Source of the DNA: Comamonas thiooxydans
GTDB lineage: Bacteria > Pseudomonadota > Gammaproteobacteria > Burkholderiales > Burkholderiaceae_C
Length of the DNA: 64,000 nt
Assembly: GCF_002157685.2 (NCBI RefSeq)
Contig: NZ_AP026738.1
Location: 2,418,001 to 2,482,000, forward strand
Reading direction: 5' to 3'
The notes under the pieces are model-generated. The model saw nothing but the letters and a program-made list of their open reading frames with translations. It ran no database searches and was not told where the DNA came from. Positions 7,302 to 13,410 of this stretch are shown piece after piece. The position numbers were made by a program, and so were the translations under genes. Position 1 is the stretch's first letter, and the number at the start of each line of letters is the position of its first letter.

Positions 7302-8552
7302 TCACCTTACAAGGACGGGTACCAAAGGGCCGTTTGTTCCGCCTGCCAGACCGGTGGTGGTGCAGGGACTGTCGAGATCGCTGGCATTGCCTCGGAACTC
7401 GAGGTAAATGTCCTCTTTGACCGGATTGGAAATTGGCTGAAGCATCAGCATGCAGGCGAAATTGACCACATTGCCTGCGGTATTCACGACAGGTGTCAGT
7501 ACAAGGCGGCGGTCTGCGCCATAGCTTTGGAGTTGTGCGGAGCTAACAGCAGTTTCATTGCTCCCATTAATGGGGCAGCTGGGGCTGCAAGGAGTAAACG
7601 ACTGGCGCTGCGTTATGAAGTTGGGGATGCCGCCTTGAGCTGGGCCGTTGTAGGCGTTGAACTTGCTGGGCCAGTTTGTGGCGGTGTAGATATAGCCCGT
7701 GTAATCAGGGCGACTTACGGTTGGGCCATTGGTCGCATTTAGAGCACCCTTGTAAATACCAAAGCGGTGATTCCAATATTCAAAAACAGAGGTTTTCACG
7801 CCGCTGGTGCCGATAGGAAGAGGAGGATACTCGGAGCTACAGTATTTCCCCTCCATTTCTGCCCATGTTTCGGTAGCGCTCGTCGAACCGTCCAGATTGG
7901 CCCAGCCGAAGTCGCTACCACTGCTTCCTGACTTGCTGAGCGCGATGATCCAGTCGCCCTTGTTGAGGGTCGTAAATTTGGACTGCTTCAACTGCACCGG
8001 GATTGGGCAGGAACTTTGGGCAACACTTCGTGTGGCCACGGCCCTCGCACCTACGGTGCCTGTATTGGGCCAGGTGGCGCTATCGCCGGTAAAGGAACCC
8101 ATGGCTTGCAGCAGCCAGAGCTTGATGCTGTTCATGGTGTATTTGCACTCGACATACCGTGCATCTTTGGCGAGGGTAGTCTGTGCATATGTCTTGTCGC
8201 GAAAGATCCCTATATCGCTGGCGGCGATCTTGCCAACGCCATTCCAGCTTGCGGATTGCAGGTTGGCGTTGTTGCTGTTTCCCGCCGCCATGCCTGCGCT
8301 CTGGGCACGTGTGATGGCGTCAGGCTGGCCGTTGAGCTCTCGTGCCGCGGCCAGCGCGCAGCTGTCCACGGCCGTCTGCAGTTCGGTCTTGACGATAAAC
8401 AGCCGGCCAAAATCCAATGCAATGCCCATAAAGCCCAACAGGAACAGCATGAACAGGGCAAAGGTAATCAGAAAGGCACCATGCTGCCGCCGCTGTGCGG
8501 CAGAACCACGCATGGGCCGGGCTTTGGACCTGAGGTGTGGGTGGTTTCTCAT
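7302..8552 (-). CDS. tadG: TadG-like pilus assembly protein
   Basis: 416-residue protein with a basic N-terminus, the TadE/G signature (RRQHGAFLITFALFMLFLLG, membrane helix about 24-48), and DFGRLFIVKTELQTAVDSCALAAARELNG, the conserved Flp-associated helix. A long periplasmic region follows with several cysteines. It lacks the von Willebrand A domain found in some TadG proteins, as far as I can see. TadG works with TadE as a minor component of the pilus. The ATG at 8552 has only a weak ribosome site. It sits 77 bp after the last flp copy and 5 bp before tadE. Confidence 0.85.
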   Translation of the reverse strand: MRNHPHLRSKARPMRGSAAQRRQHGAFLITFALFMLFLLGFMGIALDFGRLFIVKTELQTAVDSCALAAARELNGQPDAITRAQSAGMAAGNSNNANLQSASWNGVGKIAASDIGIFRDKTYAQTTLAKDARYVECKYTMNSIKLWLLQAMGSFTGDSATWPNTGTVGARAVATRSVAQSSCPIPVQLKQSKFTTLNKGDWIIALSKSGSSGSDFGWANLDGSTSATETWAEMEGKYCSSEYPPLPIGTSGVKTSVFEYWNHRFGIYKGALNATNGPTVSRPDYTGYIYTATNWPSKFNAYNGPAQGGIPNFITQRQSFTPCSPSCPINGSNETAVSSAQLQSYGADRRLVLTPVVNTAGNVVNFACMLMLQPISNPVKEDIYLEFRGNASDLDSPCTTTGLAGGTNGPLVPVLVR

Positions 8553-8629
8553 GATGTGTTTCGAATGGAGTGGTTGGCTGGAGAGCCATGACGGACGAGA
8601 CGACCGCCATGGCTTGTCTGTGGATAGAG

Positions 8630-8839
8630 TTAGGTGCAGCTAGCCGAGTTGGTCAGGCAAGCCTTGACTTTGGTGAGCCAATCATCGAAGAGGGTGCTGC
8701 CTAAGGAGGACTTCATAAGAACAATCAGTCCAATGGAAACTACGGCTACGACGAGCGCGTATTCGATGATCTGCGCGCCTTCTTCATCCTGGATAAAGGC
8801 TTGCAGGGAATGGCCAAATTGCTGAGCGATGCTGTTCAT
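8630..8839 (-). CDS. flp: Flp type IVb pilin, copy 3 (operon-distal)
   Basis: 69-residue prepilin, the major Flp pilus subunit. It has a 21-residue leader ending EEG, the cleavage site before AQIIEY (Glu+5, Tyr+6), a single membrane helix (about 28-45), and a short C-terminus with Cys61 and Cys68. GAGGTATCACC precedes the ATG. It differs from copies 1 and 2 mainly at residues 40-53 (IVLMKSSLGSTLFDD instead of ILLMKSSISNALFTD). It is the last of three tandem copies. An inverted repeat with arms GCCATG.CGG lies about 45 bp after the stop. Confidence 0.93.
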   Translation of the reverse strand: MNSIAQQFGHSLQAFIQDEEGAQIIEYALVVAVVSIGLIVLMKSSLGSTLFDDWLTKVKACLTNSASCT

Positions 8840-9026
8840 GGTGATACCTCAAAGTTGGGTCAACGGCTCCATGCTGGCGCTGTAGCGCGGCGCCAGAACC
8901 ACGCATGTGCCGGGTTGTGGTCCAGTAGTGCGGGCTGTTTTTCATGGTGCAATGCGCCTTGATCGGTTCCTTGCTAATGGCCATGACAGTGAGCGCGGCT
9001 CCGTCATGGCTTACCTCTCAATACAG

Positions 9027-9236
9027 TTAGGTGCAGCTAGCCGAGTTGGTCAGGCAAGCCTTGACTTTGGTGAGCCAATCAGTGAAGAGGGCGTTGCTGA
9101 TTGAAGACTTCATTAGCAGGATCAAGCCAATGGAGACCACGGCCACAACGAGTGCGTATTCGATGATTTGCGCGCCTTCTTCATCCTGGATAAAGGCTTG
9201 CAGGGAATGGCCAAATTGCTGAGTGATGCTGTTCAT
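9027..9236 (-). CDS. flp: Flp type IVb pilin, copy 2
   Basis: 69-residue prepilin with the same architecture as its neighbours: leader cut after Gly21, AQIIEY motif, one membrane helix, Cys61 and Cys68 near the C-terminus. It carries Thr5 where the other two have Ala5. The 187-bp spacers on either side are nearly identical to each other, so this gene is the middle unit of a 397-bp tandem array. GAGGTATCACC provides the ribosome site. All three copies are intact and keep the processing site, so all could be assembled. Confidence 0.93.
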   Translation of the reverse strand: MNSITQQFGHSLQAFIQDEEGAQIIEYALVVAVVSIGLILLMKSSISNALFTDWLTKVKACLTNSASCT

Positions 9237-9423
9237 GGTGATACCTCAAAGTTGGGTCAACGACTCCATGCTGGCGCTATAGCGCGGCGCCAGAACCACG
9301 CATGTGCCGGGTTGTGGTCCAGTAGTGCGGGCTGTTTTTCATGGTCCAATGCGCCTTGATCGGTTCTTTGCTAATGGCCATGACAGTGAGCGCGGCTCCG
9401 TCATGGCTTACCTCTCAATACAG

Positions 9424-9633
9424 TTAGGTGCAGCTAGCCGAGTTGGTCAGGCAAGCCTTGACTTTGGTGAGCCAATCAGTGAAGAGGGCGTTGCTGATTG
9501 AAGACTTCATCAGAAGAATCAGTCCGATGGAAACTACGGCCACGACGAGCGCGTATTCGATGATCTGCGCGCCTTCTTCATCCTGGACAAAGGATTGCAG
9601 GGAATGGCCAAATTGCTGAGCGATGCTGTTCAT
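9424..9633 (-). CDS. flp: Flp type IVb pilin, copy 1 (operon-proximal)
   Basis: 69-residue prepilin; leader cut after Gly21 and AQIIEYALVVAVVSIGLILL as the membrane helix. It differs from copy 2 at only three residues (Ala5, Ser14, Val16), all in or near the leader, so mature copies 1 and 2 are predicted identical. The ATG at 9633 is the homologue of the other starts; an in-frame upstream reading to 9720 has no family support. Processing is expected by the prepilin peptidase encoded at 12655-13245. Confidence 0.92.
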   Translation of the reverse strand: MNSIAQQFGHSLQSFVQDEEGAQIIEYALVVAVVSIGLILLMKSSISNALFTDWLTKVKACLTNSASCT

Positions 9634-9797
9634 GGTGATACCTCTAAAGTGAGTAACGGATCGAAAACATCTACACGGGTTGGGTGCCGGTTTGCAGGGC
9701 CGGCGGCAAGTGGCGTGCAAGGCCGCGATGCGATCTGCTCTCCTTTCAAATTCAATGGTGTGGAACTGGTGAATCGGTTTGTTGGAGATTCCGAGGA

Positions 9798-10127
9798 CTA
9801 GGGCGTGCCGCCGCTGCCCCCGCCTGCGCCACCGCTTTGGTTGCTGGTCAGCGAGCCGCCAATATTGATGACATTGACTGCCTGCGGTGGCGTTTTGAAG
9901 CTGCGCTCGTAGCGCTCCATGGTGTGCGCTGCGGCTCGACCGTCCATGCCTGTGGCTCCATCAACACCGACGCCAGGAGTCTTGCCGGCTTCAGGGTTGA
10001 GGGTCATCTGCATGCGGGCGGTGCGCACAGCCTCGCCAAAACGAGCGTCGTAGTGAGGGGTTGTGCTGCCGCAGCCCGCCAGCAGGGCTGCGAGGGCCAC
10101 GGGAAATAGGATGCTGCGTTCGATCAT
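9798..10127 (-). CDS. Small Tad-locus lipoprotein
   Basis: 109-residue predicted lipoprotein: signal sequence MIERSILFPVALAALLAGC with lipobox LAGC (Cys19), then a hydrophilic body and a Gly/Ser-rich tail (GGAGGGSGGTP). GGAGGC lies six bases before the ATG. It stands 14 bp after cpaC, the position that RcpB/CpaD outer-membrane lipoproteins occupy in other Tad loci. It is much shorter than those and I cannot show homology. A role as secretin partner or pilotin is inferred from position only. Confidence 0.75.
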   Translation of the reverse strand: MIERSILFPVALAALLAGCGSTTPHYDARFGEAVRTARMQMTLNPEAGKTPGVGVDGATGMDGRAAAHTMERYERSFKTPPQAVNVINIGGSLTSNQSGGAGGGSGGTP

Positions 10128-10141
10128 GGCTTGCCTCCGGT

Positions 10142-11743
10142 TCAGGTGGGCGGATTCAGGGGGGCGGGACGGTCAACCGAGGGCTCGGCCGGTGCTTGGG
10201 GTTGCAGCTCCTGAGGTGCTGCTACCGGGGCAGGTGCCGGAGCTGGGGTTTCAGTGCCGGACGGCATGGCTGCGGCGGGCGCAGTCCTCGCGGCTGACGC
10301 GGGCTTGGAGCTTTCCAGCGCACCGTTGAGATAGACCTCGGCGCGTGAGGGCACCACATGGTTGTCGGTGGGCACTCTGGGTGCTTCTGCGAGTGCCTGC
10401 ACCAGGCGCGGAGTGATGATGAACATCAACTCGGTCTGATCGGTCTGGAACTCGGTGCTGCGGGCCAGCGCGCCGAGAACCGGTATTTCCCCCAGTCCCG
10501 GAAAGCGTTTGACGGCCTCGGTGATGTTGTTTTTGATGAGACCGGCAATGACCAGGCTTTGCCCGTCATTGAGCTGCACCGTGGTGTCTGCGCGTCGCAC
10601 CGAAAGCGAGGGGATGACCGAGGTGACGCCATTGATGGCGGTGAAGGGTGAGCCTGTCTGAGACAGGTCGGACACTTCTGAGACCAGCTTGAGATTGACG
10701 CGTGAGCCACCCAGTACGGTGGGCGTGAACTTGACGCCGATGCCGAACTCTTTTTCCTCCAGCGTCATCACTGGCACGCCAGTGGTATTGCTCTGTGCGA
10801 CGGGAATAAAGATCTTGCCGCCCGAGAGAAAGCTGGCCTGTTGGCCGCTGATGGCCATGATGTTGGGCTCGGCCAGGATTCGCACCAGGCCGTCGTCTTT
10901 TTGGCCGTCAATGCTGATCGAGCCTTTGCCTATGCGCATGGCGCTCAGCAGTCCGCCGCCGCCACTCAGGAAGTTGGACGCGATGGAGAAGGTGTTCATG
11001 CCATTGCTGGTGATGCGCTGGCCCGCAAGGCTGGCCCCGAGCTTGTCGAGCAATGTCTTGCTGACCTCGGCAATCTTGACTTCCAGCATTACCTGGTGAG
11101 GCGAAGTGGTGCGCAGCAGGTTGACGATCTTCTTGCTGTCGCTGTAGGCGCCGGCGAGCGTCACCACATCGTCCAGGCGCAGCGGATTGCTGATCTCTCC
11201 GCTCAGGACCAGGGCATTGTCGGCGCCCTGGACGCGGATGCTGCGTTCCTCGGGCATGAGCTCGCTGAGCTTGGCCTGCAGCGGCCCCGGGTCCATGGTG
11301 ACGATCACGTCCTTGATGAAGCAGGCACCCTGGGCGTTTTGCAGGATGACGTTCATGGAGCCGGACTTGCGGCCGCGAAAGAACAGGTCTCGCGGGCTGA
11401 GCAATTGCACCTCGATATCGCCCATGCCGTTCTGCATTTGCGGCTGGCTATTCGCGGCCATGGGTGCTGCTGCCTGGCCCGCTCCGGGTGTCTGGCCGCT
11501 CACCAGGATGCGCGCCATGGGCGAGCTCAGCGGAATGACCACGGATTTTCCCAGCGTGACGGTGGTCGGATCCTCCGTGCGGATGGCCGTGCAATTCCTG
11601 GCGGGCAGGGTGTTGCGGGGAGCTGCGGGAGCTGCCGCAGCCACGGGGCCGGGCTGGGCAGGTGTGCCCGCAGATTGGGCCAGCACAGGTGCTGAGCTGG
11701 CGAGCAGCATGCTAGCTGCTATGTATAGGTGATGATGTTGCAC
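10142..11743 (-). CDS. cpaC: Tad pilus secretin CpaC/RcpA
   Basis: Outer-membrane secretin channel for the Flp pilus, 533 residues. A signal peptide (1-22, ending PVLAQ) is followed by the N-terminal RcpA/CpaC domain (about 50-140), a BON-like segment containing RVQGADNALVLSGEI, and the secretin domain (about 240-450) with VMLEVKIAEVSKTLLDKLGA and QTELMFIITPRLV. The C-terminal 80 residues are Pro/Ala-rich. The start is GTG at 11743, preceded by GAGAGG; no ATG lies nearer that keeps the signal peptide. It lies 33 bp after cpaB and 14 bp before the small lipoprotein gene. Confidence 0.93.
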   Translation of the reverse strand: MQHHHLYIAASMLLASSAPVLAQSAGTPAQPGPVAAAAPAAPRNTLPARNCTAIRTEDPTTVTLGKSVVIPLSSPMARILVSGQTPGAGQAAAPMAANSQPQMQNGMGDIEVQLLSPRDLFFRGRKSGSMNVILQNAQGACFIKDVIVTMDPGPLQAKLSELMPEERSIRVQGADNALVLSGEISNPLRLDDVVTLAGAYSDSKKIVNLLRTTSPHQVMLEVKIAEVSKTLLDKLGASLAGQRITSNGMNTFSIASNFLSGGGGLLSAMRIGKGSISIDGQKDDGLVRILAEPNIMAISGQQASFLSGGKIFIPVAQSNTTGVPVMTLEEKEFGIGVKFTPTVLGGSRVNLKLVSEVSDLSQTGSPFTAINGVTSVIPSLSVRRADTTVQLNDGQSLVIAGLIKNNITEAVKRFPGLGEIPVLGALARSTEFQTDQTELMFIITPRLVQALAEAPRVPTDNHVVPSRAEVYLNGALESSKPASAARTAPAAAMPSGTETPAPAPAPVAAPQELQPQAPAEPSVDRPAPLNPPT

Positions 11744-11776: not shown

Positions 11777-12622
11777 TCAGAAGCAGTTGAGAGTGCGAGC
11801 GCCGCCCTGGATGACCTCGACACAGGTAGCCGTCGAAGTCTGGGGTGCGGGCCTGGCTCGCTGCATTGCGGGTTTGGCAGGAGCTGCGACCTTGATGGGT
11901 GCAGGGGTTGGTTCGGGTGTTCCAAAAAGCTGGTGCTTGGTGATGCCAGCGGTGCTGGTCGGGTCCTTGTCAATCTGGTTGCGCAGCACCAGTGAAAGAT
12001 TGCCTACGCTGCGTGCAAGATCGAGTTTCTCGGCATCTTCCGGGCTCAACTCGAGCGTGACGGCACTCACCACCTTGGGTTTGGTCTCGTCACGATCGGC
12101 CTCCTGGGCCACGGCCAGAACCAGCACGTTCTCCAGCACGGTTTTGCTGATCTGGCGCGACTCTTCTGTCTTGCCGTTCTGCTCCTGCTGGGCATTGACC
12201 ACCACATCCACGTAGTTGCCGGGCAGGGCGAAGCCCGCAACACCGACCACATCGTTGACGCGCACCGTCATGGCCCGCTTGCCCGGAGCGATGACGGCAG
12301 CCAGTCCGCCCTTGGTGCCGACCGGGGCCAGCTTGCCTTCGAGCACGGCTTCGCCGCGCAGCACTCCGACCTTGACGACGCGATCCTGTAGCTGTTGCAT
12401 ATCATGGAAGGCGCCATCAGGTATCGAGCCCCGTGGCCAGTCCACCGTGTTCAGCATGGTCGGCAGAATCTTGCCGCCCAGTGGAATGTCGGTGGCAGCG
12501 ACGACCACCTTGTCGGCGTCTAAGCTGCCGCGTTGGGCCACCCAGTTGGCGGCGTAGACAGCCGCTGCCAGACTGGCCAGTGCTGCGAGGATAAACAGAC
12601 CCAAAGCTTTGAGGTTTTTCAT
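11777..12622 (-). CDS. cpaB: Flp pilus assembly protein CpaB/RcpC
   Basis: 281-residue periplasmic protein anchored by an N-terminal helix (about 7-28, LGLFILAALASLAAAVYAANW). A SAF domain (about 38-105; VVVAATDIPLGGKILPTML) is followed by the RcpC domain (VRVNDVVGVAGFALPGNYVDVVV, about 120-150). In other Tad systems this protein modulates secretin and pilin function in the periplasm. The C-terminus carries two cysteines (TCVEVIQGGARTLNCF). The ATG at 12622 has GGGAG upstream. It is the second gene of the operon, 32 bp after cpaA. Confidence 0.93.
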   Translation of the reverse strand: MKNLKALGLFILAALASLAAAVYAANWVAQRGSLDADKVVVAATDIPLGGKILPTMLNTVDWPRGSIPDGAFHDMQQLQDRVVKVGVLRGEAVLEGKLAPVGTKGGLAAVIAPGKRAMTVRVNDVVGVAGFALPGNYVDVVVNAQQEQNGKTEESRQISKTVLENVLVLAVAQEADRDETKPKVVSAVTLELSPEDAEKLDLARSVGNLSLVLRNQIDKDPTSTAGITKHQLFGTPEPTPAPIKVAAPAKPAMQRARPAPQTSTATCVEVIQGGARTLNCF

Positions 12623-12654: not shown

Positions 12655-13245
12655 CTAGACCCAGGTGAACTGCCGAGCGACCAGGAACGCCAGGGTTCCC
12701 AGGGCGATGCTGACGCCGTAAGGCAAGGTGCCTACCGAATGCGCCGAGTTGGAGCGAGCATCGGGACGGATCCCCGCAGCGACATTGACGTAGAGCAACT
12801 GCACTGCCTCGGCCGAGTTGCGCACCAGCTTGCCGGCCATGCGGTGCCAGAGTGCGTAGCTGATGGCAGCCACACCGCCGGTGATGAAGATAAAGATCAC
12901 GGCCTGACAGGCGGCGGCGGGGCCTAGAAAGCTGCCGACCATGGCCATCAGCTTCACGTCGCCGGCTCCCATGGCATGCAGCAGATAGAGAGGCAGCATC
13001 AATGCCAGGCCTACCGCCATGCCGCCCAGCGCCCAGAAAAAGCCGCCGGTGTGGGGATGAGGGGCTAGCAGGCCGTAGAGCAGGGCCAGGGCGGCGCCGC
13101 CGAAGGTCAGGCGATTGGGGATGCGACGTGTGCGCAGGTCACAGATGCTGGCTGCCAGCAAAAGCAGCAACAGGATCAGCGAACGCGGCTCGGTGAAAAC
13201 GGCGGCCACGAGTTCGGATGCTGCGCTGAGTTCGGAAGATGTCAT
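12655..13245 (-). CDS. cpaA: Prepilin peptidase CpaA/TadV
   Basis: 196-residue A24-family aspartic membrane protease that removes the Flp and TadE leaders. Both catalytic aspartates are visible: Asp36 in CDLRTRRIPN and Asp96 in the GAGDVKLM motif. It lacks the N-terminal methyltransferase domain of PilD, as is normal for TadV. About five membrane segments are apparent. The ATG at 13245 is chosen over a TTG six bases upstream because GGAGG sits six bases before it. It is the first gene of the tad operon, with a promoter candidate about 170 bp upstream. Confidence 0.93.
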   Translation of the reverse strand: MTSSELSAASELVAAVFTEPRSLILLLLLLAASICDLRTRRIPNRLTFGGAALALLYGLLAPHPHTGGFFWALGGMAVGLALMLPLYLLHAMGAGDVKLMAMVGSFLGPAAACQAVIFIFITGGVAAISYALWHRMAGKLVRNSAEAVQLLYVNVAAGIRPDARSNSAHSVGTLPYGVSIALGTLAFLVARQFTWV

Positions 13246-13410
13246 GGTCAACCTCCAGTCCTGTGTTCAGCGAATCCTGTTCGGGCCTCAGAGTTGACGC
13301 TGGCTGTCTGCTGCGTTCAGCTCATCTGACTGGTGTCCACAGGATTCGGGCTATGTGTGACTAAATACAATTTTTCTATCAACTTCATTCTTTTGTTTAA
13401 TTTTGTGGAA

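Follow-up and report, generated by a model that had tools for sequence, protein, structure and literature searches.

A three-copy flp pilin array in the tad locus of Comamonas thiooxydans and its possible growth in two steps

The tad locus and its three flp genes

The window, i.e. the whole stretch of 64,000 nucleotides analysed here, covers positions 2418001-2482000 of the single-contig genome of Comamonas thiooxydans (5,914,097 bp). Its minus strand carries a set of tad genes around an array of three flp pilin genes; the features are listed in Table 1. The pilin genes are flanked by a prepilin peptidase, RcpC, a secretin and TadE/G-type genes, which identifies the region as a tad locus. Two TadE-like genes (PF07811) lie beyond the tadG-like gene, and genes further down are, judging from their translations, putative cpaE, tadA and tadB. 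The secretin adjoining the array shows 99% protein identity to its counterpart in Comamonas testosteroni ATCC 11996 (L001), which places the genome in the C. testosteroni group. ATCC 11996 is one of the two nearest relatives found and is referred to as T; the other, S, is locus L048 of genome G050. A second, single flp gene of another type was observed at G000:C1:5558406-5558540 (L079 1874-2080) next to a prepilin-peptidase-like ORF and is perhaps part of a second tad locus.

Table 1. Features of the flp array and the adjoining tad genes, in window positions and in the order of transcription
Feature	Position	Strand	Remarks
Prepilin peptidase	12655-13251	-	PF01478
RcpC	11777-12622	-	PF16976
Secretin	10142-11743	-	PF00263
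109-aa ORF	9798-10127	-	without Pfam match
Conserved element, upstream of A only	9712-9735	-	starts 102 nt before the ATG; outside the duplicated unit
RBS of A	9634-9644	-	identical copies at 9237-9247 (B) and 8840-8850 (C)
flp copy A, first transcribed	9424-9633	-	69 aa; PF04964, 36.6 bits (cut-off 32.2)
Spacer sA, between A and B	9237-9423	-	187 bp
tadG relic in sA	9262-9342	-	27 codons (first 26 of the tadG-like gene plus one inserted), in-frame stop
flp copy B, middle, apparent hybrid	9027-9236	-	69 aa; PF04964 above cut-off; nt 124-210 identical to A
Spacer sB, between B and C	8840-9026	-	187 bp; 4 differences from sA
tadG relic in sB	8865-8945	-	no in-frame stop
flp copy C, last	8630-8839	-	69 aa; copy-1-like at nt 64-123, own block at residues 40-52
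Strong predicted hairpin between last flp and tadG	8584-8614	-	z -5.03, calculated over 8566-8629
tadG-like gene, source of the spacer relics	7302-8552	-	PF13400

Transcription of the array runs from position 9633 downwards, so copy A comes first. The original prediction of three complete flp genes at an exact period of 397 bp was confirmed by the ORFs, the PF04964 matches and the tandem repeat search, which all agree. The Flp_Fap profile matched the three copies with 36.6, 36.5 and 38.1 bits (curated cut-off 32.2), the start-to-start distances were 397 and 397 bp and TRF reported one array at 8624-9650 with a period of 397, 2.6 copies, 93% matches, 0% indels and a score of 1828. All three copies retain start, RBS and full frame; for copy A the ORF list gives a longer frame with a TTG start (9424-9720). 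The string spanning RBS and start, GAGGTATCACCATGAAC, occurs three times in the window compared to a mean of 0.00 in 100 shuffles.

Each product is a short prepilin with a predicted G/A cleavage site, and the fifth and sixth residues of the mature form are E and Y, as expected for Flp. A role of this Glu and Tyr is described in the available text of PMC11067988. The residues G21, A22, E26 and Y27 were invariant in an alignment of 30 proteins, made up of A, B and 28 of the 57 cluster representatives. Residues 5, 14 and 16 are the sole differences between A and B; all three precede the predicted cleavage site G21/A22, and the two mature pilins are predicted to be identical, as had been proposed. 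Copy C had been expected to depart in one block and indeed differs from both A and B at residues 40, 46, 47, 48, 49 and 52. Searches with A and C yielded 57 cluster representatives, for which we computed mean entropies of 0.33 bits for residues 22-39, 1.72 for 40-53, 1.15 for 54-61 and 1.75 for 62-69. As the entropy peaks at 40-53 and 62-69, the block of C is one of two variable parts of the protein. Of the 57 related proteins, 56 also contain two or more cysteines beyond residue 55 (residues 61 and 68 of Flp); a disulphide bond between these may close a loop at the pilin's outer end.

A sequence search of solved structures returned only a chance match (E 0.54) and we therefore mapped Caulobacter PilA by counting from the cleavage site with an offset of 7 and gaps assumed absent, so that the mapping is a rough one. 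According to the available part of PMC11067988, the C-terminal end of the Caulobacter pilin extends outward and the contacts of PhiCb5 include PilA Val29, Val30, Val32, Thr33, Asn43, Lys48 and Thr51. By our rough count the equivalents lie at about residues 36, 37, 39, 40, 50, 55 and 58, of which only residue 40 is changed in C. C may alter the outer face of the filament.

The conserved element upstream of A corresponds to a 24-nt pattern (21 fixed bases) that all 12 Comamonas loci tested carry 88-102 nt before the first flp gene, with no more than one mismatch. Of 39 non-Comamonas loci 13 were tested, three of them with an approximate flp start, and in all 13 the best place showed 7-11 mismatches, about as in shuffles (5-9). 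In its own genome the pattern occurs once at up to 3 mismatches. As B and C lack the element, a single transcript presumably reads through A, B and C. A nearly invariant block, GAAAGGAG-NNCNGA-Y-CGCA-NNN-CGGCCTTGCACGCCA, was seen at 9711-9747 on the minus strand and in 11 other Comamonas loci (11 loci aligned), followed by what by eye is an apparent stem with changing arms; the block might serve as a promoter or leader element. We rejected a sigma-54 interpretation of the leader, since T and S have a different base in the supposed -12 part (ACTTGC vs ACTTAC). Rfam gave no match for 8200-10200 up to an E value of 1. No sigma-70-like site was found on either strand of 8300-10150, and the terminator-like sites in the same interval were two in number, on the plus strand only and at chance level (shuffle mean 1.5), with no T-run terminator on the minus strand. 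A strong hairpin was predicted behind the last flp gene in all eight loci examined (z -3.0 to -7.5). Predictions for four internal spacers were weaker (z -0.6 to -2.0) and candidate hairpins inside the relic and at the tadG start were no better than shuffles (z -0.65 and +0.51). The RNA may accordingly have a protected or partly stopped end before tadG.

Spacers, tadG relics and related arrays

The spacers sA and sB differ at 4 of 187 positions, which agrees with the earlier count of about four. They had been described as equally conserved as the genes and this did not hold, since the genes differ at 14 (A-B), 15 (A-C) and 22 (B-C) positions per 210 nt (6.7-10.5%) and the spacers are the more conserved part (Fisher p 0.050 against A-B, 0.031 against A-C and 0.0008 against B-C). 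The lower divergence of the spacers indicates that they are younger or more homogenised than the genes, for which we computed synonymous divergences of 0.276 (A-B), 0.125 (A-C) and 0.359 (B-C).

Both spacers contain a stretch that resembles the tadG start (8497-8575), with 71% identity in sA and 72% in sB over 79 nt; the local alignment score was 58 and the best of 500 shuffles reached 26. The frame of this relic is interrupted by TAG in sA and in the T spacer and by a one-base deletion in S, and sB is stop-free. Similarity to the leader of A is confined to the final ~25 nt of the spacer (score 28, reached by 1 of 500 shuffles). On this sequence evidence the spacer is an old flp-tadG junction with a decayed tadG start. 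As it matches both the tadG start and the leader of A, the first duplication unit would have been flp with a short piece of leader before it and the beginning of tadG after it.

We surveyed 53 genomes of the genus, own genome included, and obtained an flp match at E <= 0.001 in 26 of them. Twelve of these 26, again including our own, carry such a locus and the other 11 loci were read at the DNA level. The window genome has three flp copies; T and S have two each, separated by one spacer of 187 and 186 nt, respectively, giving array periods of 397 in T and 396 in S. C. terrae has two copies with a 110-nt spacer, L005 and L052 have one copy each and the remaining six Comamonas loci have two unlike copies with spacers of 45-48 nt. 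In the two relatives compared for the relic-type spacer (T and S, one genome per species) it occurs after copy 1 only, and tadG comes after copy 2. The distance between sA and sB (4 positions) is smaller than that of either to the spacers of T and S (7-11, with the one-base deletion in S included). A duplication in common with C. terrae was considered and rejected, as its spacer is without a relic of the tadG start (213 of 500 shuffles were as good) and resembles that of the window genome only at the RBS.

In the wider samples an flp match was found in 21 of 120 genomes of the family, in 24 of 150 genomes of a further sample and in 27 of 377 genomes of the class; these samples overlap in part, each includes our own genome and one congener, and the counts are lower bounds, as the search models can miss divergent flp genes. 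The only other cluster of three matches in them occurred in one genome, G562 (C45:269661-270308). None of the relatives seen carried a fixed set of three diverged copies, the pattern that would have spoken against the original prediction.

As tandem repeats are prone to mis-assembly, the array itself might be an artefact. This is hardly credible given that the genome forms a single 5.9-Mb contig, that the copies differ at 14-22 of 210 nt, that two other genomes carry two-copy arrays with nearly the same period and that C is the representative of a 90% protein cluster of 8 sequences on 15 contigs. Because of this cluster, C is probably also present beyond the window genome.

It had also been proposed that the copy number can change. 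Between species a difference in copy number, two against three, was observed. A living switch, in which slipped or unequal recombination tunes pilin dosage or subunit mix within a population, could draw on the same difference between species and on the long direct repeats (93% matches at 397 bp in TRF). However, genes that are 6.7-10.5% apart and a block kept in C indicate that whole units have not recently been overwritten, and we regard such a switch as quite improbable.

The apparently hybrid copy B, the odd copy C and the origin of the array

Copy A is nearest to copy 1 of the relatives, at 9 nt from T_1 and 7 nt from S_1. For copy B the affinity changes along the gene: across nt 64-123 we observed 0 differences from S_2, 1 from T_2 and 11 from A, and across nt 124-210 it matches A at all 87 positions, with 5 differences from S_2 and 4 from T_2. 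Copies 1 and 2 differ within nt 124-210 at 7 sites in T and at 8 sites in S. The differences between A and B are distributed as 14 of 123 (nt 1-123) versus 0 of 87 (nt 124-210; Fisher p 0.0005), and the corresponding counts between copies 1 and 2 are 17:7 in T and 17:8 in S. A single-breakpoint permutation test on B gave p 0.0075, with 16 of 17 informative sites fitting and nt 21 against. B therefore looks like a hybrid of copy-2 type sequence at nt 1-123 (one site against) and a part at nt 124-210 that is identical to A.

Moreover, the spacer after B is of the type that T and S have after copy 1 only. Out-of-register recombination in a two-gene array would produce such a combination of a hybrid second gene and an additional spacer behind it. 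The other marks of unequal recombination were also found: the repeated unit spans gene plus spacer, the relatives have fewer copies and the apparent hybrid gene is internal. The 3' part shared by A and B has 4-5 differences from copy 1 and copy 2 of the relatives alike. As it is equidistant from both types, the transfer may have run in either direction and gene conversion fits as well as a crossover.

Copy C does not follow this pattern. Across nt 64-123 it has 4 differences from A, 12 from B and 12 from S_2, and across nt 124-210, which hold its own block, 9 from A and B and 7-11 from the rest. Sister exchange alone would leave a last gene of copy-2 type, whereas C lies outside the T_2/S_2 type, so that either a partner of different sequence or a further event has to be assumed. 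The second flp gene of the genome (FWRDEEGATAIEYG-type product) was rejected as the donor of C, being too unlike as judged by eye.

The view of a recent duplication or homogenisation is consequently borne out in part: T and S have two copies, sA and sB are nearest to each other and the 3' parts of A and B are identical. A simple triplication does not describe the array, since the copies show synonymous divergences of 0.125-0.359, B is hybrid-looking and C is no fresh copy of A or B.

The sequences flanking the array change their resemblance. Upstream (10464-9965) the window genome differs from T at 13 of 499 sites and from S at 63 of 494 sites. Downstream, across tadG-tadE-tadF (8132-6404), it differs from S at 15 of 1729 and from T at 267 of 1723 sites. 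The backbone (5153-2154) differs by 92 of 3000 from S and by 76 of 3000 from T. Synonymous divergence was 0.045 to S and 0.661 to T for tadG, and 0.228 to S and 0.109 to T for the secretin. A clear preference for T or S was absent at 11214-10465, and at the array edges (9897-9696 and 8369-8307) most informative sites separate the window genome from S and T, which agree with each other. Over 13462-6404 as a whole we noted mosaic tracts, the window genome being mostly T-like upstream of the array and S-like downstream. Just beyond the tad genes (14100-13463) roughly a third to a half of the aligned sites separate it from S and T, which are closer to each other than to it. To judge from these alignments, the pilin block has probably undergone allelic exchange between lineages. 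As the flanking switch in resemblance points to allele exchange, an out-of-register crossover between strains is a fair guess for C and the second spacer, and inter-strain recombination seems a plausible origin of both.

With moderate confidence we favour an origin of this Tad (type IVc) pilin array in two steps, a shared flp duplication followed by out-of-register recombination that made the hybrid B. In the first and older step, common to T and S, flp would have been duplicated together with ~25 nt of leader, its 3' hairpin and the first 26 tadG codons, and the tadG piece would then have decayed to today's spacer. In the second and younger step, homologous recombination out of register within the two-gene array would have added one extra 397-bp unit, so that the spacer was doubled and the middle gene became a hybrid, the breakpoint lying at about nt 123-135. 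A non-identical partner array is probable and would have brought C and the slightly different second spacer.

Alternatively A, B and C might be ancestral, T and S or their ancestor having lost a unit by recombination between B and C, with conversion in the window genome aligning the 3' parts of A and B. Such a history would account for C, which a single sister exchange in a two-copy array like that of T or S does not yield and which is probably not private to the window genome. An exchange between B and C within nt 156-210 would also leave hardly a trace, as this part is near-identical in the seven genes compared (differences at 183, 198 and the stop codon). However, it requires a loss plus a conversion and, with sA and sB at 4 of 187 positions from each other and at 7-11 from the T and S spacers, the spacers would have to be converted too. 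We consider it rather unlikely.

Following the two-step origin further, one transcript with three flp genes would yield more pilin, with A and B supplying one mature form and C a second form that differs in the variable block; the recombination partner, the dosage effect and mixed filaments are what we infer from this scheme. If C came with a foreign array, Tad pilins would diversify by inter-strain exchange. This could matter for Tad-pilus-binding phages, as differences in Caulobacter PilA do for PhiCb5 (available text of PMC11067988). A tentative and rather doubtful extension is that the pilin block is a recombination hot spot at which strains fuse arrays out of register, the present array being a hetero-allelic A-B x A-C recombinant. 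If true, this would produce new hybrid pilins and new combinations with tadG, tadE and tadF, with phage pressure perhaps playing a part.

Comparison with known systems

Our literature search listed no paper on tandem duplication of flp in tad loci or on chimeric tandem pilins by unequal crossing over, and among the titles listed none dealt with a Comamonas flp array; subscription papers were mostly outside the search. Among the loci analysed here, Variovorax sp. YR216 (L008, 8801-9476) has three flp genes, two of which differ at 20 of 201 nt and lie 214 bp apart, plus an older one. Unlike in the Comamonas array, only a few bases separate its copy 1 from copy 2, and the 93-nt spacer that precedes copy 3 shows no duplicated beginning of the gene that follows (133 of 500 shuffles were as good). 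G562, from another genus of the family, has flp-like matches at C45 269661, 269983 and 270189.

In Neisseria pilE/pilS, pilin diversity arises by recombination between repeats, with silent partial cassettes as donors. The Comamonas array is not a set of silent cassettes of this kind, as all three flp genes are full-length with the same RBS and start.

Tad loci with more than one flp gene are already known, as the available parts of PMC5430801 and PMC7716237 illustrate. Bdellovibrio carries flp1 and flp2 in its tad operon and flp3 and flp4 elsewhere, and three Bacteriovoracaceae genomes have three TAD-associated flp genes each (PMC5430801). The likeness lies in several flp genes within one tad locus; as far as the text of that paper goes, however, those genes are very diverse, whereas the three Comamonas genes are 89-93% alike in DNA with near-identical spacers and an apparent hybrid. 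In the type B cluster of Pseudomonas fluorescens F113 and in Aggregatibacter flp is likewise duplicated within the tad cluster, and the available part of PMC7716237 describes these duplications without a spacer relic or a hybrid, both of which the Comamonas array appears to have. The three-flp array is a real but ordinary kind of gene amplification, and more informative than the term triplication conveys: the locus would record the growth of a pilin array, with the tadG relic marking the first duplication and the hybrid gene the second.
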